Assembly: GCA_900199505.1 (NCBI GenBank)
Contig: FZQV01000009.1
Coordinates: 1-64,000, forward strand
Reading direction: 5' to 3'
Length of the DNA stretch: 64,000 nucleotides
From: Ruaniaceae bacterium KH17
GTDB taxonomy: Bacteria; Actinomycetota; Actinomycetes; Actinomycetales; Actinomycetaceae
Made by a program: the position numbers and the translations under genes. The notes under the pieces were generated by a model. That model was not told where the DNA came from. It searched no databases and saw only the letters and a list, made by a program, of their open reading frames with translations. This document shows, in pieces, positions 22,577-60,290 of this stretch. Positions within the stretch are counted from its first letter, which is position 1. Each line of letters begins with the position of its first letter.

Positions 22577-23536
22577 TTACTTTTTGTTGAGTAGATCGAC
22601 GATGCGGTCGAGATCCTCAACCGATGCGAAATCGATCGTCATCCGGCCTCGGCGCGCACCCATTGTCACTTTGACACGCGTGTCCAGGCGGTCGGCGAAG
22701 GTCGCAGCGATCTCGTTGAGTTGATCCTGTTGCGGGTGGGCCACGGGCCGCCGCCGGAGCTCCGGTTGTACGACATCACCCATCGCCACGATTTCTTCTG
22801 TCGTTCTGACAGAAAGCCCCTCGGCCACGATCCGCTGGGCCAGGCGCTCCATTGCGGCAGCATCATCCAATCCGAGGAGCGCCCGCGCATGGCCGGCAGA
22901 GAGGACGCCTGCCGCCACTCGCCGCTGTACAAGCGGAGGAAGCTTGAGGAGACGGAGCGTGTTCGAGATTTGCGGGCGTGAGCGAGCGATCCGTCGTGCC
23001 AGCTCTTCCTGTGTGCAGTTAAAGTCCTCCAGAAGTTGCTGATAGGCGGATGCCTCTTCGAGTGGGTTCAGCTGCGCGCGGTGCAGATTCTCCAGCAGAG
23101 CATCGCGGAGCATGTCGGTGTCATCGGTCTCGCGAATGATCGCGGGAATGGTCTCCATCTCCGCGAGACGTGCCGCGCGGAAGCGCCGTTCGCCCATGAT
23201 CAGCTCATACGGCGCGCCGGATCCCGGTGGGGCCGGCCGTACCACGATCGGCTGTAGCAATCCGACCTCTTGGAGAGACGCCGCAAGCTCGGCGAGGTCA
23301 TCTTCGTCAAACACCTGGCGCGGGTTCAGGCGGTTCGGGACGATGTCGGCGATCGCCAGTTCGGCCGCACGCACACCGGGAATCGGCGCGAGGGTTTCAC
23401 GTGAAACACTCTCGTCAGCCGTCGGCTCCGTTTCACGTGAAACATCGAAGAACAGGTCGCTCGGACGCTTTGTTGCGTCGGCTGTGGGAATCAGTGCCTC
23501 AATGCCACGACCCAGTCCCCTGCGCTTCTCAGCCAT
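22577..23536 (-). CDS. parB: chromosome partitioning protein ParB
   Basis: 319 residues. Begins MAEKRRGLGRGIEALIP, the ParA-stimulating N-terminus, then the CTPase/spreading domain with GERRFRAARL, a helix-turn-helix (TQEELARRIARSRPQISNTL) that reads parS, and a C-terminal dimerisation domain. ATG at 23536 has AAGGAG upstream and overlaps the parA stop by eight bases. Two parS sites lie inside the gene and give the repeated peptide VSRET near residues 33 and 44. Confidence 0.96.
   Translation of the reverse strand: MAEKRRGLGRGIEALIPTADATKRPSDLFFDVSRETEPTADESVSRETLAPIPGVRAAELAIADIVPNRLNPRQVFDEDDLAELAASLQEVGLLQPIVVRPAPPGSGAPYELIMGERRFRAARLAEMETIPAIIRETDDTDMLRDALLENLHRAQLNPLEEASAYQQLLEDFNCTQEELARRIARSRPQISNTLRLLKLPPLVQRRVAAGVLSAGHARALLGLDDAAAMERLAQRIVAEGLSVRTTEEIVAMGDVVQPELRRRPVAHPQQDQLNEIAATFADRLDTRVKVTMGARRGRMTIDFASVEDLDRIVDLLNKK
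23394..23407. other. parS site 1, inside parB
   Basis: GTTTCACGTGAAAC, the perfect 14-bp core of the bacterial parS consensus; the flanks give 15 of 16 positions. ParB binding here may also affect expression of its own gene. Confidence 0.93.
23430..23443. other. parS site 2, inside parB
   Basis: Perfect GTTTCACGTGAAAC core, 36 bp from site 1 centre to centre, so both sites lie almost on the same face of the helix. Confidence 0.93.
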
Positions 23537-24646: not shown

Positions 24647-24963
24647 GGCTCTGCGCACCATCGGGCCTGGACCAAGCGGCCCTGCCCTCGGACCTGCGCT
24701 CACTCCTTCGCGCGGACGTAGCGACCTGTGTCAGGGTCTGGTTAAGCGTACGTAGCGCTGTTCGCGGTAGACGGTTGTGTCCGAAGGGCCGTGTGTGGCG
24801 CTGCGCACCTGCAACCCCTGCGCTCGCTCGGAACGCCTGAACGCAAGCGTTCAGCTCCTCGCTCTTTTGGGGTGAACACCGCCACGCGCATGTGTGGCGG
24901 CGGGTCCGAGGGCATGGCCGTCTGCCGCGTACCAATACAAGAGAGCCGTTGATGCCGGTCGAT

Positions 24964-40784: not shown

Positions 40785-40850
40785 CGGCGGTCCCTTTCCC
40801 ACTCAAGTATGCACGCCCGTTCGCTTCACTTCCCCTCCTTTCCCAACCGA

Positions 40851-40904
40851 ACTGGTTAGAGCTCTGGCGTGCCGAGGTCCAGAGACGCCAGAGCTGCAAC
40901 CACT
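40851..40904. repeat. intergenic inverted repeat D1
   Basis: AGCTCTGGCGT (40860-40870) pairs perfectly with ACGCCAGAGCT (40885-40895); outer ACTGGTT and AACCACT pair with one mismatch, giving a 54-base span. It lies in the divergent region 67 bases upstream of the SorC gene. The right half CCAGAGCTGCAACCACT recurs with one change at 49753-49769. Confidence 0.75.
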
Positions 40905-40988
40905 TCTTGCTCGATCAGTGTGAGGGGGGTCGCGTTCAGGGGAACGGGTAGCGACGGTAGAATGGGCGAGGTCAATGAAGGAGACGTA

Positions 40989-44229: not shown

Positions 44230-45489
44230 ATGATGAAACGCCGCCTCACCACCCAAGCCACCGCTTCACTCGCCGCGATCCTGCTCATCGCCGGGTGCTC
44301 AGCTGGCGCCTCGGATGACACCATAGCAACGTCTCCGGGCGAAGCCGCGGCAGTCGAGACGACCACCGAACCCACCGAGGAATCGAACGAAACAGCCGAT
44401 GCTGCGGGACCCGCGACCAGTACGTCCGCTACGTCCGAGCTGGTGGACGTGGACTGGGACTCCCTGCCCACCACTGAGGTTGAACTGACCGACGACGGCC
44501 TGACCATTACTGAAGCCGGCACCTATGTGCTGACCGGCGAATCCGCCGGCCAGGTCGCCGTGGATACGGACGGCTACGTGCGGCTGATCCTCGACGGCGT
44601 CACCATTAACTCCGCCGAAGGTGCCGCCATCCAGATCGACAACGCCGAACTCGCCGTGATCGAGCTTGCGGACGGGGCCACTAACACGATCTCCGATTCC
44701 GCCACCCGTAGTGACGAAGAGATCGATGGCGCGATCTATTCGTCCGATGGCCTCGTCGTCACCGGCACCGGCACCCTGAACGTAACCGCGAACTTCGCCG
44801 ACGGCGTCGTGGGCAAGGACGATCTGTGGATCGAATCCGGCACCATCAACGTGACCAGTGTTGACGACGGCATCCGTGGGAAGGATTCGCTGAATATCTC
44901 CGGCGGGACCATCACGATCGACGCACAGGGCGACGGCATGAAGTCCTCGAATGACACCGATCTTGGCCTCGGCCAGCTGAACATCACCGGCGGCGACATC
45001 ACGATCACCACCGGCGACGACGCGATCAAGGCCGAGCAGGCGCTTACGATCAGTGGCGGGACGATCGAGATCGTCTCCTCTGTGGAGGGCATTGAGGCGC
45101 CCGTCATCGTGATTGACGGCGGTGACATCAGCGTCAACGCCTCCGACGACGGCATAAACGCCTCCGCCTCCGACATCGTCCTCGAGGGGCTGAGCATCAC
45201 CATCAACGACGGCAACATCACGATCGTGATGGGCGCCGGTGACACAGACGCGATTGACTCCAACGGCGACTTGACGGTCAACGGTGGCACGCTCAACATC
45301 ACCGCGCAATCCGCGTTCGATTACGACGGCACCGGGACCCTGACCGGCGGCACGATCAACGTGAACGGCGAGGCGTGGACCGAACTCACCCAGACTGGCC
45401 CCGGCGCCGGCGGGATGGGCGGCGGCATGGGCGGCCCCGGCGGCGGCCAGCCCGGCGGTGACATGGGCGGTCCTGGGCAGAACGGCTAA
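44230..45489 (+). CDS. carbohydrate-binding beta-helix lipoprotein (Cthe_2159 type)
   Basis: 419 residues. Lipobox LIAGC after the signal segment, a Thr/Glu/Ser linker (about 30-75), then a right-handed beta-helix with rungs such as ISGGTITID, ITGGDITITTGDDAIKA and VNGGTLNITAQ. The founding member binds polygalacturonate and cellulose with calcium. The tail is almost pure Gly/Met/Pro (GGMGGGMGGPGGG). ATG 44230, preceded by AAGGAA. No enzymatic site is evident, so it is a surface binding or adhesion protein. The 238 bases before it show no further feature. Confidence 0.82.
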   Translation: MMKRRLTTQATASLAAILLIAGCSAGASDDTIATSPGEAAAVETTTEPTEESNETADAAGPATSTSATSELVDVDWDSLPTTEVELTDDGLTITEAGTYVLTGESAGQVAVDTDGYVRLILDGVTINSAEGAAIQIDNAELAVIELADGATNTISDSATRSDEEIDGAIYSSDGLVVTGTGTLNVTANFADGVVGKDDLWIESGTINVTSVDDGIRGKDSLNISGGTITIDAQGDGMKSSNDTDLGLGQLNITGGDITITTGDDAIKAEQALTISGGTIEIVSSVEGIEAPVIVIDGGDISVNASDDGINASASDIVLEGLSITINDGNITIVMGAGDTDAIDSNGDLTVNGGTLNITAQSAFDYDGTGTLTGGTINVNGEAWTELTQTGPGAGGMGGGMGGPGGGQPGGDMGGPGQNG

Positions 45490-45572: not shown

Positions 45573-45628
45573 GTTGTGGAGTTCTCATCCTTCTATTCGG
45601 CGCAATAGAAGGGCGAGAACTCCACAAC
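45573..45628. repeat. 46-bp-class palindrome B1, upstream of the asparaginase gene
   Basis: GTTGTGGAGTTCTC pairs with GAGAACTCCACAAC, and CTTCTATT with AATAGAAG, with three mismatched positions between and a six-base centre. Plan: TGTGGAG, 11 variable bases, CTATT, six bases, AATAG, 11 bases, CTCCACA. It lies 83 bases after the lipoprotein stop. Repeat B2 has the same plan. Confidence 0.85.
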
Positions 45629-45717
45629 GTGAGCGTGGCCCTCCGTTGCGCTTACTCGTCGAGCTTCTGGGCGTCGCGGGGCGGGGTGGGGTGCGCGGGT
45701 AGGCCTACGATGAACCC

Positions 45718-46692
45718 ATGACCCGCTATCCCCTCACTGTTGACGGCGCCGTCGAACTTGCCGTCGTTGATCGCGGCGGTTTCGACGAATCGCGTCATAT
45801 TGGAGCCGCCGTGGTGGTTGACGCGTCCGGCAACGTCCTGCGCGAGCTGGGCGATGGCGGCGCGAGCATCTACCCGCGCTCCTCGATGAAGCCATTCCAG
45901 GCGCTCGCCGTACGCCGCAGTGGCGCGGTTTTCCGGGACGCCGAGCTGGCCCTCTCGAGTGCGAGCCACGCGGGGAGCCTGCGGCACCAGGAGGTTGTGT
46001 CCGCGATGCTCGCCGCACACGGCAACACCGAGGACGATCTCGGCTGCCCGCCTGCGTATCCTCTCGATCCCGACGGCGCCCGGCTGGCCTCCGGTGAACG
46101 TCGCCTGGCGATGAACTGCTCGGGCAAACACGCCGCAATGCTGGCCGCGTGCCGCGTCAACGGTTGGGACCTGGCCAGCTATCTCGACCCGGCCCATCCC
46201 CTCCAAACGACGGTGATCGCCGTCGTCCAAGAATTCATGGGCGAGCGGATCGACCATACTGCCCCCGACGGCTGTGGGGCGCCCGTGTTCCCGGTGACTC
46301 TGCGCGGGCTCGCGGGCGGGATTGGGCGTCTCGTGAACGGGGGCGATCCGGACACGCAGGAGCTCGTCGCGGCGGTGCTCGCGAACCCGTGGGCGATCGA
46401 CGGCGAGGGGCGCGCGGATACCACCGTGATCGAGTCACTCGGGGTCTACTCCAAGGGTGGCGCAGAGGGCGTGATGACGATGGGCGTGCCAGGTGGCCCT
46501 GCGGTAGCGGTGAAGACCCTCGATGGCTCGCCGCGCGCCGGAACCCTCGCGGCGCTGACCCTGCTCGTGAGTGTGGGCGCGCTCGATGCCGACGCCGTTG
46601 CGCCCGTGCTCGAGAAGGCGGTGTCACCAGTACTCGGCCGCGGTAAGCGTGTTGGTCGCGTCCGCCCCGGGGCCGCGCTCACCGCTCGTTGA
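45718..46692 (+). CDS. asparaginase (Rhizobium etli AsnA-II/PF06089 family)
   Basis: 324 residues. Motifs are RSSMKPFQALA (Ser and Lys of the catalytic SxxK), SSASHAGS, LAMNCSGKHAAML, DGCGAPVFPV and YSKGGAEGVM. Hydrolyses asparagine to aspartate and ammonia by a mechanism unrelated to the classical bacterial type. The ATG at 45718 lacks a ribosome site, and TACGAT ten bases upstream is a good -10 element, so the transcript is probably leaderless. Flanked on both sides by palindromes of identical plan. Confidence 0.88.
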   Translation: MTRYPLTVDGAVELAVVDRGGFDESRHIGAAVVVDASGNVLRELGDGGASIYPRSSMKPFQALAVRRSGAVFRDAELALSSASHAGSLRHQEVVSAMLAAHGNTEDDLGCPPAYPLDPDGARLASGERRLAMNCSGKHAAMLAACRVNGWDLASYLDPAHPLQTTVIAVVQEFMGERIDHTAPDGCGAPVFPVTLRGLAGGIGRLVNGGDPDTQELVAAVLANPWAIDGEGRADTTVIESLGVYSKGGAEGVMTMGVPGGPAVAVKTLDGSPRAGTLAALTLLVSVGALDADAVAPVLEKAVSPVLGRGKRVGRVRPGAALTAR

Positions 46693-46744
46693 GCGAGGGC
46701 GCGAACGGCCACAGCGAACTGACCTAGCGTCAGATCCGTGCGGA

Positions 46745-46796
46745 TGTGGAGCAAATGGCCATCTATTCCGCGGAATAGATGGCCATCTGCTCCATG
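46745..46796. repeat. 46-bp-class palindrome B2, downstream of the asparaginase gene
   Basis: A perfect 32-bp palindrome (46755-46786, centre CCGCGG) inside GGAGCA/TGCTCC arms. Same plan and spacing as B1: TGTGGAG, 11 bases, CTATT, six bases, AATAG, 11 bases, CTCCA. It lies between converging stop codons (asparaginase, 53 bases; methyltransferase, 69 bases). Confidence 0.88.
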
Positions 46797-46865
46797 AGAC
46801 GCGCTCGTTGACGCGCGGGTAGAGTGCGTGGCTGTTGGTGGTCGAAGAGCGACCCCCAGCGACGC

Positions 46866-48449
46866 TCAGACGGTGGGCTTCTCGGCCACGAGCAGAACGT
46901 TGGTCCAGGACCAGGGATCGGGGGCGCCGTCGGACAGGAACACTTCGGCCGCTGGAGCAAAGCGATTCGCGATCAGCCACGGGTTCTGGATCGGCCGCGC
47001 GTCCGGCGTGACCACGAACCCCGCGCCCTCGAGCCGCGCCACCCAATCGGCCGGAGAGAAGAAGCAGAACCTCTCGTGCGCCTCGGAATACCAGGAGTTC
47101 AGGTAGTCCTTCTTCGACAGGAACTCGTACAGATCCGCCCGCCGCAGCTCCACGTACTCCTCGCCCCCGACGGCGACCTCCCGGTAGGAGATCTGGTCGC
47201 CCTCCTCGCGGCGGAAGTCCTGGGCGAACTGCCTGAAACGCGCCGCGGAAGAAAGCCCGCCAAGCTCGGACGCGCTCAACTGTGCCACGTGCGAGCCCGA
47301 GCGCCCTGCCAGCTGCGCCGATCGGTCATCCGGTGTCGGCCCGCCTGGGGCGCCATCGTCGGAACGGAAGCGGACCAGCACGGGTTCGTCACCGCCGTCG
47401 GGCCCCACCACATCGAAGTTGATCCACACGCCGCCCGGCCGCAGCATCGTGAACACCCGCTCGCAGAACTCCTCGAGCGCCACCGGGCCGAGGTAGGAGT
47501 AGATCTCGTGCGTGAGCGCCATCGTGATCACGGTGTCCAGCGAGTTTGGCTCGAACAGCGTGGTCTGCATGATGTTGCGCTGGTGGAAGAAGACGTTCGC
47601 GTCCCCAAACTCGCCGATTGCCGCCCGCTGCAGGCAGATCTCGTATAGCGGCCGCGCCACCTCCACCCCGTAGAAGTCGGACTCGAACAGCGCCGGACGC
47701 TCGCTCAGGAGCTTGATTGTCTGGCCGGTTGCGCAGCCAACGTCCACGATCCGGCCCGGCCGCACCAGATGCGCGAACTCGCCCACCTTGCGCCACGCGT
47801 TGTCCTCGAACGCGGCGCGATAGCTGGCGTAATCGCGGGTGATGGTGATGTCGCCGTCGTCGGAATCGATGAGCGGATCGGCGTAGACCTGCCGGATCGT
47901 CTCCGCGAGCCCGTAGCGGCGATAGTGGGCGAGCGCCGCGGGGTGTATGGCCTGGATGACGCTCGGATCCTCCAGCCCGACGGCGATCACTCGCTCCACG
48001 AGGTCCCACGGCCTGGGCAGGTCCTCGCCATCGGGTGTGGCGCCGAGCTCGAAGGTGTCGATCGTGTAGCCGAGGCGCTCGTAATCGGCGATCACGGCTG
48101 GGGTGGAGCAGGCCACGATCGTGGTGGTGGGGGTCATGGTGACCGCGCCGCCGCTCTGCGTGCGGATCTCCTCAATGACGTAATGCGCGAAGTCCGGTTT
48201 TGGCTGACGGTTGGCGATCAGGAACGTGCGCGAGGGGAGCTCCTCCACCGCCGCGACCGCCTCGATCAGGCCGAGCCGGCGCGTGCCAGGGATGGGGTTG
48301 CGCTGTGTGCCGCCGTGGTTGGCGCTGGTGATCGCCCAGATCACCTCGGCGCCGGGGTGTGCCGCCAGGAGTTGCTGGAGGCGCGCCACCTGGAACCTAG
48401 TCACCAGGTGGTGCCGCCCGGGGAAGAGAATGTACCGCACGTGAATCAC
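46866..48449 (-). CDS. nucleotidyltransferase (NMNAT-like) fused to a SAM methyltransferase
   Basis: 527 residues. The N-terminal part (1-165) looks like a nicotinamide-nucleotide adenylyltransferase-type nucleotidyltransferase: ILFPGRHHLVTRFQVARLQ, WAITSANHGGTQRNP and PGTRRLGLIEAV match the order of NadM motifs, although a clean HxGH is not present. The C-terminal part (about 200-527) is a class I methyltransferase: IVDVGCATGQT, FYGVEVARP, ITMALTHEIYSYLG and a FTMLRPGGVW strand. I do not recognise a characterised fusion. GTG start at 48449 has no ribosome site. An NrtR-like NUDIX regulator lies 439 bases upstream on the same strand. Confidence 0.65.
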   Translation of the reverse strand: MIHVRYILFPGRHHLVTRFQVARLQQLLAAHPGAEVIWAITSANHGGTQRNPIPGTRRLGLIEAVAAVEELPSRTFLIANRQPKPDFAHYVIEEIRTQSGGAVTMTPTTTIVACSTPAVIADYERLGYTIDTFELGATPDGEDLPRPWDLVERVIAVGLEDPSVIQAIHPAALAHYRRYGLAETIRQVYADPLIDSDDGDITITRDYASYRAAFEDNAWRKVGEFAHLVRPGRIVDVGCATGQTIKLLSERPALFESDFYGVEVARPLYEICLQRAAIGEFGDANVFFHQRNIMQTTLFEPNSLDTVITMALTHEIYSYLGPVALEEFCERVFTMLRPGGVWINFDVVGPDGGDEPVLVRFRSDDGAPGGPTPDDRSAQLAGRSGSHVAQLSASELGGLSSAARFRQFAQDFRREEGDQISYREVAVGGEEYVELRRADLYEFLSKKDYLNSWYSEAHERFCFFSPADWVARLEGAGFVVTPDARPIQNPWLIANRFAPAAEVFLSDGAPDPWSWTNVLLVAEKPTV

Positions 48450-50918: not shown

Positions 50919-50963
50919 GGAGCAAGACTCGACCCACGACGCGTCGAGGGTCGAATCCTGCTC
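50919..50963. repeat. 46-bp-class palindrome C1
   Basis: GGAGCAAGACTCGACCC pairs (two mismatches) with GGGTCGAATCCTGCTC around the palindromic centre CGACGCGTCG. From GGAG to the end of the paired CTC position is the same 46-base span as B1, B2 and C2. 64 bases after the SPFH stop. The right arm is identical to that of C2 at 60291-60336 over 16 bases. Confidence 0.85.
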
Positions 50964-54445: not shown

Positions 54446-54647
54446 ACGGGGGACTCTACATAGCCCCGGCCCGACGGCGTCGGGCCATCTCAGGAGTTGA
54501 TGCTCAGTTGGGTTACGGCACCGATGTTAGGGAGGGACAGGGGCGGCCGGGGGCAGGTGGGGCGAGAGTTGGGAAGGCCCGGAGGGAGAGCTGTTACTCG
54601 GTTGGATTGTTCAGCGGAGTGAGCAACGGAGCCGCGCAAGCGTGGAG

Positions 54648-54688
54648 CTTGGCAGTTGATGAACGCTGAGCGTTCATGGAGTGCCAAG
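54648..54688. repeat. intergenic inverted repeat after the MFS gene
   Basis: CTTGGCA/TGCCAAG outside and ATGAACGCT/AGCGTTCAT inside, one-base centre, three bases after the MFS stop codon. A likely transcript end. The rest of 54446-54647 shows only G-rich tracts. Confidence 0.78.
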
Positions 54689-54690
54689 AT

Positions 54691-55986
54691 CTAGTCCGTG
54701 AGGAGTTCCTCGACGCCGTGGTCGCCATGGGTGGAAACCCAGAACCAGCCGGCCAGGATGAGGCCGATGATCAGGAGCACGCTGGTGAGGATGAACGGCC
54801 AGGTGCGGTGCACGCTCGAGAGCCCGCCGGCGATCCAGCCGAAGGGTGCGGTCACGAGCATCACGCCCGTGCGCTGAATCGCCATCACGCGCGAGCGCTC
54901 CTCCTTGTTGACGTGCAGCGCCACGAGGGATTCGGAGAGCATGAACATGATGCCCATCCCGAACGCGTCGAAGAGGAGGCAGAGCGCGAGGAGGCCGTAG
55001 ACGGTGGTGGTGGCGACGCCGTCGGGGGCTGGAATCAGGACGAGGAGAACCTGGCCGAGCAAATACACCGCGAAACCGAGGATGGTGGGCAGCCGCAAGC
55101 TTCGGCGGTTCAGCAACGGCGGAATGATCGTGAAGAAGAAGATGACCGAGAGGATCGAGCGAACCATCGGGGCGAAGGGCAGCAATGCCACGGGCACGTT
55201 CAGGTGCTCACTGACGACCACCTGCCAGAACGTGGTGTTAATGATCGAGACCGCCCCCACGATCGCCATGATCACCAGCGAGAAGATGGTGCCCTTCGAG
55301 TGGATGATCAGGGGGATGACGTTGCCGTATTCACGCAGCGACTTCCAGATGCTCACGCCCTTGGTTTCGCGCATGCGGACCATGCCGGTGGCGGTCTCGG
55401 TGCTGTAGCGGAACAGGAGCCAGACCTTCAGCGACATGATGATCGCGGCGTTCACGTAGAGGATACGGACCGCCGGCTCGAGGCCGAGGTTCGAGACGAG
55501 GAGGGCGGCGATGGGGGCGAAGAGTGCCGAGGTGTCGGCGGCGACTTTGACGAGGGAGTAGACGCGGGGAATCTGGGCGCGGTTCACATCCTCAACCAGC
55601 AGGCAGTCCCACGAGTTCTGCGTGACCTGCCAGACGCCGTTGATGAGGGAGGCGATGAGGAACCACCAGAAGTTCTGTGCGAGCGCCCAGATGATGCAGG
55701 GCACCACCCACGCGATCACGTCGAAGAGTGCGGTGGTGACGCGGCGACCAAGCTTGTCCGTGATGACGCCGCTGAGCAGGCCGAACACCATCTGCGAGAG
55801 CATCGACACCGTGGCGAGGAAGCCGATCTGGGCGTCTTTCAGGCCGAGCGCGAGCATGTAGACGGACGCATACGGCAGCACCAGCTGCATCGACAGGCCC
55901 CACATGGGCTCCGTAAAGACGGCCGCACGCCCGTTCCCGCGGAGAGTGAGCAGGGTGTGAATTAGGGAATTACGCGAGCGAGGCAC
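54691..55986 (-). CDS. MFS transporter
   Basis: 431 residues with about twelve membrane segments. GLLSGVITDKLGRRVTTAL is the family loop between helices 2 and 3, and ALHVNKEERSRVMAIQRTGV the corresponding loop of the second half. Substrate cannot be inferred. GTG start at 55986. It is followed by a palindrome three bases after the stop. Confidence 0.85.
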   Translation of the reverse strand: MPRSRNSLIHTLLTLRGNGRAAVFTEPMWGLSMQLVLPYASVYMLALGLKDAQIGFLATVSMLSQMVFGLLSGVITDKLGRRVTTALFDVIAWVVPCIIWALAQNFWWFLIASLINGVWQVTQNSWDCLLVEDVNRAQIPRVYSLVKVAADTSALFAPIAALLVSNLGLEPAVRILYVNAAIIMSLKVWLLFRYSTETATGMVRMRETKGVSIWKSLREYGNVIPLIIHSKGTIFSLVIMAIVGAVSIINTTFWQVVVSEHLNVPVALLPFAPMVRSILSVIFFFTIIPPLLNRRSLRLPTILGFAVYLLGQVLLVLIPAPDGVATTTVYGLLALCLLFDAFGMGIMFMLSESLVALHVNKEERSRVMAIQRTGVMLVTAPFGWIAGGLSSVHRTWPFILTSVLLIIGLILAGWFWVSTHGDHGVEELLTD

Positions 55987-57425: not shown

Positions 57426-57477
57426 AGTTGAGCCGTGGGGTACGCATCAGCGCTGATACGTCCCGCACAGCTCAACT
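57426..57477. repeat. 46-bp-class palindrome, near the P450 start
   Basis: AGTTGAGC/GCTCAACT outer arms and ACG-c-ATCAGCGCTGAT-a-CGT in the centre, where ATCAGCGCTGAT (57446-57457) is a perfect palindrome. TGAGC to GCTCA spans 46 bases, as in the B and C repeats. 74 bases after the PPK2 stop and 58 bases upstream of the P450 start. Confidence 0.78.
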
Positions 57478-60155: not shown

Positions 60156-60290
60156 GTTGTTTAGTCTCGCACGGACGGGCCGAACCGTGCTCCCGCGTGC
60201 CGCCTGCCCCGCTCGCGCGCGGCGTCAAACCCCGCTCCCACGAGGCGCGAGGAGGCGCGGTTCGGGCACTGGCGGCTATCGAACGGAACA

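Follow-up and report, generated by a model that had tools for sequence, protein, structure and literature searches.

Two palindromes around an asparaginase gene belong to an intergenic family of fixed-length palindromes with partly covarying arms

We analysed a 64,000-nucleotide stretch of DNA (the window) from the actinomycete Ruaniaceae bacterium KH17, in which two palindromes, B1 and B2, bracket an asparaginase gene. B1 and B2 are members of a genome-wide family of palindromes that have a fixed length, conserved boxes, covarying arms and intergenic placement and fall into two classes, and in two cases homology breaks off at the palindrome centre. They are probably two copies of a dispersed, non-autonomous palindromic repeat, REPIN-like or minimal-MITE-like, with a fixed length of 52 bases, conserved end boxes and a stem that is free to vary if it stays mostly paired.

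Results

Palindromes at the asparaginase locus

The first-pass annotation had described B1 and B2 as palindromes of one plan on either side of the asparaginase gene. This was confirmed, both being near-perfect palindromes of 52 bases. The features of the locus are as follows (classes are defined in the next section):

44230–45489, + strand: Cthe_2159 carbohydrate-binding domain protein, left neighbour
45573–45628, no strand: B1, class-A palindrome with GT/AC outer extension, between the Cthe_2159-type gene and the asparaginase gene
45577–45581, no strand: conserved outer box TGGAG of B1; complement CTCCA at 45620–45624
45582–45588, no strand: variable, covarying segment in the left arm of B1; partner 45613–45619
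45589–45597, no strand: inner conserved block CCTTCTATT of B1, with C15, C19, T20 and A21 present in 64–67 of 68 arms
45718–46692, + strand: L-asparaginase II gene (PF06089), bracketed; 324 aa, intact; E 8.1e-91 over residues 16–316
46745–46796, no strand: B2, class-A palindrome, between the convergent asparaginase and methyltransferase genes
46747–46751, no strand: conserved outer box TGGAG of B2; complement CTCCA at 46790–46794
46752–46758, no strand: variable, covarying segment in the left arm of B2; partner 46783–46789, one mismatch
46866–48449, − strand: methyltransferase-domain protein, right neighbour

The plan common to B1 and B2 is TGGAG-N7-CCWT-CTATT-N6 followed by its complement. 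Read in register, the two share TGTGGAG, differ at seven left-arm positions, and then have CC, one variable base, T, CTATT, a mostly common centre and the complements. The statement that their 11-base arms differ completely was not correct: the inner four bases are CCTT versus CCAT, and only the seven bases at arm positions 8–14 differ throughout in the left arms. On both strands B1 and B2 fold with energies between −38.2 and −40.4 kcal/mol (z between −9.4 and −10.4), and none of 200 shuffles was equally stable.

The asparaginase gene itself has a patchy distribution, with a homologue in 10 of 212 other family genomes, in each case at most 50% identical, and the window's neighbour genes were absent at those 10 loci in the 1.5 kb examined on each side. 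Asparaginase is one of four genes that are singly bracketed by palindromes; it is not the point of the structure, and any effect on it is incidental.

Size of the family

A literal-pattern search of the genome and a covariance model had both been proposed for finding further copies. Literal patterns recovered B1 and B2 in the 2.72 Mb of the window's genome, together with one unrelated short palindrome (C67:19660) and no further copy, which, under the literal condition set in the annotation, would count as a refutation; such patterns miss the family because its inner boxes vary. The covariance model was built, and it yielded a family of about 43 sites in the genome. With E values up to 10 allowed, its first form (R1, from B1 and B2) matched 43 places; C54:15166 was dropped from these as a false positive. 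The second model (R2) was built on 39 of the R1 places, with a gapless alignment of 56 columns, and matched at least 45 places, each reaching an E of 8e-8 or better on one or both strands; after this sharp gap the candidate ranked next had 0.13. The figure of 45 is a lower bound because 150 of 1507 first-look candidates were scored. It corresponds to 43 sites, since C42/C50 and C31/C32 are the same DNA at contig ends (100% overlaps).

All 43 sites match R2 at full model length. B1 was matched at 45573–45628 on both strands (E 2.7e-17 and 2.3e-16), and B2 at 46743–46798 (E 3.7e-15 and 4.0e-14). Position 3 of the outer box divides the sites into 32 with TGTGGAG (T, class A) and 11 with TGGGGCG (G, class B). 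Look-alike hairpins flanking one gene can thus be members of a genome-wide family, and literal pattern searches can miss families with variable arms. C60:29852 (E 0.6) is probably one more copy, in degenerate form, and stands outside the count. Several palindromes lie within 170 bases of the ends of contigs C42, C50, C31, C32, C33 and C14, probably because they break the assembly.

Conserved boxes and covariation of the arms

The outer boxes of the family read GWTGTGGAG or TTGGGGCG, and the inner box is CC-NTCTA. TGGAG (positions 3–7) was invariant in 68 of 68 class-A arms, a count that includes contig-end duplicates and is made on copies chosen by GGAG in the left arm. The flanking GW and the central G are also strongly conserved in class-A arms, while positions 9–11, 14, 17 and 22–25 are variable. 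Across both classes, G6, G7, G9 and C48, C50, C51 were invariant in the 39-row alignment. The strict class-A half-site pattern, which could mark an autonomous relative with the same ends, had 59 matches in the genome, and the reversed-pattern control gave 5. Two of the 59 lie away from any palindrome, one at C42:78118 in a truncated tandem copy and the other at C45:89105.

Pairing between the arms exceeded that in shuffled alignments. Paired cells made up 82.7% of the 39 ungapped rows versus 73.8 ± 0.9 after shuffling (0/500 shuffles reached the observed value), a percentage that is biased upward because the copies were found with a model assuming pairing. Cells in which both partners had changed numbered 110 versus 51.4 ± 6.4 in shuffled alignments (39 rows; 0/500). 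Two weaker measures pointed the same way, namely 17 column pairs with a double change versus 13.7 ± 1.5 (13/500 shuffles) and 43 further pair types versus 37.1 ± 2.3 (5/500), and in controls with the partner slid by 1–3 columns 38–49% of cells were paired. The class box changes jointly on both sides, as column pair 5/52 was T-A in 32 and G-C in 7 of the 39 rows with no exception, and column pair 8/49 was A-T in 32, C-G in 6 and broken in one.

Agreement between the arms of a copy was in excess over part of the arm. Over positions 8–14, the two arms matched each other at 4.29 of the 7 positions, compared with 2.84 ± 0.25 after random dealing of arms among copies; at positions 15–26 there was no excess of within-copy agreement over dealt arms. 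Constant blocks with covarying arms, as first seen in B1 and B2, therefore hold family-wide by the double-change count, with covariation that is partial. The conclusion drawn from them, that pairing itself is selected and the palindromes are not a protein site alone, is partly supported: covariation is not what a fixed double-strand site would produce by itself. Selection is not the sole possible source: copies could alternatively be made or repaired as palindromes, which would give covariation, the arms are often mismatched, and arm variants recur across sites.

Folding of 42 sites gave a mean of −29.6 kcal/mol (range −10.8 to −50.4). The half-arms (n = 84) had a mean folding z of −0.12 versus letter shuffles, and 8% of them had z below −1.5.

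Genomic placement

None of 42 places lay inside a gene (40 distinct sites, with C22 and C67 left out, and genes predicted by a crude home-made caller); a single apparent 22-base overlap disappears with a better start codon. A coding origin of the palindromes was rejected on this count. The gaps that contain copies were tandem in 17 cases, convergent in 11 and divergent in six. Convergent gaps were over-represented, with 11 of 34 among gaps containing copies versus 22 of 157 among gaps lacking them in the same loci (Fisher p 0.02). In the part of the flanking genes that was scanned, many neighbours were ordinary, unrelated genes: ferrochelatase, UDP-glucose pyrophosphorylase, glutamine synthetase, DNA ligase, IMP dehydrogenase, MoeA/MoaC and E1-alpha/E1-beta.

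The palindromes might be bidirectional transcript ends or stabilisers of mRNA 3′ ends, with pairing selected in the RNA, a reading that we consider unlikely. It would account for the high stability of the hairpins on both strands, for the arm covariation and for the convergent-gap excess, which mild terminator function would also predict. An intrinsic terminator shares the stable hairpin of B1 and B2, but the T-tract after the stem is lacking: a T-rich tail (at least 4 T in the 8 bases after the stem) followed 3 of 84 ends. Moreover, terminators need no conserved internal boxes, six divergent gaps contain copies, and copies also lie between genes of the same direction, one between moeA and moaC and another separating E1-alpha from E1-beta and followed by a clear ribosome-binding site and start. 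On the transcribed strand G-U was not clearly favoured over A-C (33:22, p 0.18). With these tails, this ratio and the E1-alpha/E1-beta copy, the RNA role that had been suggested for the pairing was unsupported. Searching the window against Rfam at gathering score returned two tRNAs and no palindrome match.

A second reading, that the palindromes are binding sites of a chromosome-organising or regulatory protein that reads the boxes, appears improbable. It fits the presence of TGGAG in every class-A arm and of a near-invariant C-CTA at fixed spacing; two classes are as expected for two paralogous proteins, and both arms belong to the same class at column pair 5/52. However, a dimer site does not predict covariation at unconserved positions, the copies are not concentrated upstream of genes, and the family appears restricted to one lineage. 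A regulator operator as the sole explanation was rejected by the covariation at unconserved positions together with the placement.

Bracketed genes and breakpoints at palindrome centres

Six distances between neighbouring sites were 1.3 kb or less among the 43 sites, versus 0.87 expected under uniform scatter. One of these close pairs is a local duplication (C60), one is an adjacent class-A and class-B pair (C58), and four bracket one gene each, namely asparaginase, a GNAT acetyltransferase, an APH-type phosphotransferase and DUF559. HipA genes adjoin two more sites, and most copies are solitary. The DUF559 nuclease-like gene (L054 4051–4968, contig C14) has a low codon score and a GC content of 0.597 versus a mean of 0.660, and lies between two class-B palindromes.

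The DUF559 block lies at the DUF58–SpoIIM junction, which in this genome is about 1.29 kb long and holds palindrome, DUF559 and palindrome. SpoIIM was matched in 62 other genomes among 100 searched, and the loci of 29 relatives were compared. The distance between DUF58 and SpoIIM was less than 100 bases in 12 of them, 188 in one and 458–1372 in nine, and seven had no convergent DUF58 in reach; among 16 relatives with SpoIIM of at least 60% identity, two had less than 100 bases. DUF559 was found at the junction in none of the 29. As no family palindrome was found there in the nine relatives with 458–1372 bases, the junction often takes other DNA too, and it provides weak evidence for insertion of a palindrome-bounded block as a unit.

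Arms were compared over the 19 inner positions. Class-A arms at different sites differed at a mean of 8.25 positions and the two arms of one class-A site at a mean of 6.4 (1 to 12), with 22 of 32 class-A copies having arms that differ at 6–12. The nearest arm elsewhere differed at a mean of 3.35 positions, below the 4.29 ± 0.11 obtained with columns shuffled; arm variants therefore recur as blocks across sites. At two places homology breaks off at a palindrome centre or no more than three bases from it. In the first, the right half and flank of C25:48145 resemble the left half and flank of C35:13311 (86% over 139 bases, starting at the centre), with the other halves unmatched. In the second, a stretch duplicated in tandem at the end of contig C42 breaks off three bases beyond a palindrome centre. 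The C14 pair around the DUF559 gene consists of near-inverted copies of each other; it was dropped as proof of crossover at the centre, since two inverted copies of one imperfect palindrome look identical to such a product.

The palindromes could also be the places where a site-specific recombination system crosses over, at the dyad centre, and thereby carries accessory genes from palindrome to palindrome as cassettes, but we regard this as quite doubtful. We give a similarly low probability to its fuller form, in which there are several classes of about 50 bases, each with its own outer boxes and class-specific exchange, and a recombinase or transposase joins dyad centres, reassorts arms and traps single accessory genes (asparaginase, acetyltransferase, phosphotransferase, DUF559). 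If true, this would be a cassette system unlike integrons. The number of close pairs, the bracketing of single accessory-type genes, the two further sites next to HipA, the C25:48145/C35:13311 homology that begins at a palindrome centre, and the position of the DUF559 block where 12 of 29 relatives have less than 100 bases all agree with exchange. On the other hand, two of the six close pairs are the C60 duplication and the C58 mixed-class pair, inverted duplication of a single imperfect palindrome accounts for the DUF559 pair equally well, arm exchange was absent in B1/B2 and in the C19 pair, the nine longer junctions lack a family palindrome as far as found, and solitary copies predominate.

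Covariation as a by-product of DNA processing, in which template switching corrects quasi-palindromes toward perfect ones with pairing unselected, is very improbable: it accommodates the coexistence of matched and badly mismatched arms (sister distances 1 to 12) and the breakpoints at centres, but leaves the conserved boxes, the fixed 52-base length and the copy number unexplained and needs a further process to spread the copies.

Discussion

Comparison with known repeats

The reading that we prefer is the dispersed, mobile repeat. Its copies would spread through an enzyme, supplied in trans, that acts on the hairpin or the end boxes, and either hairpin copying or selection for pairing during spread would explain the covariation of the arms. 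Several observations count against it: the absence of a consistent target-site duplication, the scarcity of near-identical copies, the half-arms that do not fold alone, the convergent-gap excess, the varied length of the DUF58–SpoIIM junction in relatives, and a mobilising enzyme not seen in the 52% of the genome that was searched by motif. Among 42 sites no target-site duplication was consistent; in 104 tests the top excess was a match of two bases at a single offset, observed 9 times against an expected 2.8. No near-identical recent copies were found besides local and contig-end duplicates, the pair C60:31813/C13:1320 and the inverted C14 pair.

MITEs are minimal inverted-repeat elements, small and non-coding, that are mobilised by a transposase in trans. 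The palindromes resemble them in being small and non-coding, with terminal inverted repeats and intergenic spread, and differ in having no consistent target-site duplication and almost no interior between the repeats.

The hairpins of integron attC sites have short conserved boxes and variable paired stems and lie beside accessory genes. The outer boxes of attC are oriented opposite to those of the palindromes here, whose outer ends are GTT...AAC, whose sites are scattered rather than arrayed, and whose breakpoints lie at the centre.

REPINs are described from Pseudomonas, E. coli and Nostoc, where they occur with RAYT transposases, and Bertels and Rainey describe REPIN hairpins as keeping their pairing through compensatory changes (PMC3116915). 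In the features given in that account, the palindromes are alike in being intergenic and multi-copy, with conserved inverted ends, a fixed length and several sequence groups per genome (PMC3116915). They also share a variable interior and hairpin pairing kept by compensatory change (110 versus 51.4 ± 6.4 double-change cells, subject to the bias of the pairing model). They differ in length, at 52–56 bases versus the 71-base spacing described for GI doublets, and in number, with tens of copies versus hundreds (PMC3116915). In addition, each end of a REPIN is a REP, itself a small palindrome, whereas the half-arms here do not fold alone (z −0.12). A search for a RAYT by its HUH motif found none in 1,423,718 of the genome's 2,724,385 bases (52%), with E. 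coli RayT found as a control, and tblastn with RayT had a best E of 1.8. The family is accordingly said to work like a REPIN or a minimal MITE, and not to be a REPIN proper, because its half-arms do not fold as a REP.

Cozzuto et al. (2008) reported 92 stem-loop repeat families of bacterial genomes, two thirds of them intergenic with shared structure (PMC2267715). BIME, ERIC and these stem-loop families resemble the palindromes in being repeated stem-loops. As a difference, the main text of that paper contains no word that starts with 'compensat', and Corynebacterium and Mycobacterium are the only high-GC Gram-positives in the part of its genome table considered here (PMC2267715).

If our reading is right, the palindromes are an independent case, in a high-GC lineage, of several palindrome classes with fixed length and covarying arms and with no recognised mobiliser. 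Such a lineage would be useful for asking what copies and maintains these repeats.

Occurrence in other genomes

Over 213 family genomes, with 26–27 first-look candidates scored per genome, R1 matched the window's own genome and gave two weak matches elsewhere (E 0.004 and 0.09). With the same number of candidates scored per genome, R2 matched a further 22 family genomes with E no worse than 0.5, the best value being 1.1e-5. Two of these 22 share boxes with the family, G028 having a GTTGTGGAG arm and G109 a CCGTCTATG inner box; in the other 20, the best palindrome per locus (not always the model's own match) had no class-A boxes at both ends. The G109 palindrome (L085, C1:2592078–2592135), from another genus, is perfect, with 30-base arms, the CCGTCTATG inner box and different ends. 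G028, also of another genus, has a single 48-base palindrome with a GTTGTGGAGCTCACGCCCATC arm (L087, C17:4062–4109) that is a possible diverged relative.

A census of the inner box in the 213 genomes gave 15 per strand in the window's genome (reversed-pattern control 3) versus 0–3 elsewhere (controls 0–7). Of the 43 own sites, 22 fit the strict class-A pattern. Among 84,980 species genomes this pattern was found in one contig, labelled as a Tessaracoccus flavescens MAG. That contig (L065) is 97.1% identical to the C35 region of the window's genome over 2162 bases and carries the same 52 bases; it may be misbinned, given this identity. The strict pattern had no match in viral contigs, and BLAST of plasmids (with B1 and one class-B copy) and of phages (with B1) gave chance-level matches only. 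In a literature search that covered few subscription journals, no paper was found on REPIN/RAYT in Actinobacteria, on extragenic palindromic repeats in Actinomycetaceae or on palindromic intergenic miniature inverted-repeats in Actinomyces. As far as searched, class-A and class-B palindromes are apparently restricted to their own lineage.

Other palindrome classes

Palindromes were clustered over 844 kb of the same genome by a procedure that was insensitive, catching four class-A and class-B copies only. Further palindrome classes of similar size, and some smaller ones, share the genome:

TGATCTTGGCA...TGCCAAGATCA, about 47 bases, eight copies in 844 kb: window 54645–54691; L181 4449; L183 19628; L187 15874 and 16168; L196 2147, 3294 and 5071
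GAAGTGGTTG...CAACCACTTC, six copies in 844 kb
class around GAAGTGGTTGC with TTGGCG/CTGGCG boxes, short variable segments mostly matching between arms: window 40849–40906; L061 6162–6221; L063 6915–6968; L186 10792–10861 and 12751–12812; L198 15847; L212 4466
GGAGCA(A/G)GA-TCGAC...TCCTGCTC, four copies: window 50920–50963; L195 12179; L207 1249 and 10681
AGT[GT]GAGC...GCTC[AC]ACT, two copies in the clustering and a third found separately, 52 bases, variable arms, conserved GTACGCATCAGCGCT interior in 2 of 3: window 57426–57477; L055 6515–6566; L176 18488–18539

Two relatives were sampled at 200 kb each. G002 had a two-copy class, GGGTGAGAT...ATCTCACCC, with another outer box, and the 200 kb of G012 had no such palindrome class.

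By BLAST, stretches related to the GGAGCA(A/G)GA-TCGAC class lie near window position 60272 and at L032 2854. A dispersed repeat of about 130 bases occupies window 24778–24907, with copies at L055 1594 and 2565, L108 4058 and L031 5397. Finally, two GTTTCACGTGAAAC palindromes stand 36 bases apart at window 23394–23443. They look like ParB binding sites, and because of this resemblance the window may be near the replication origin.
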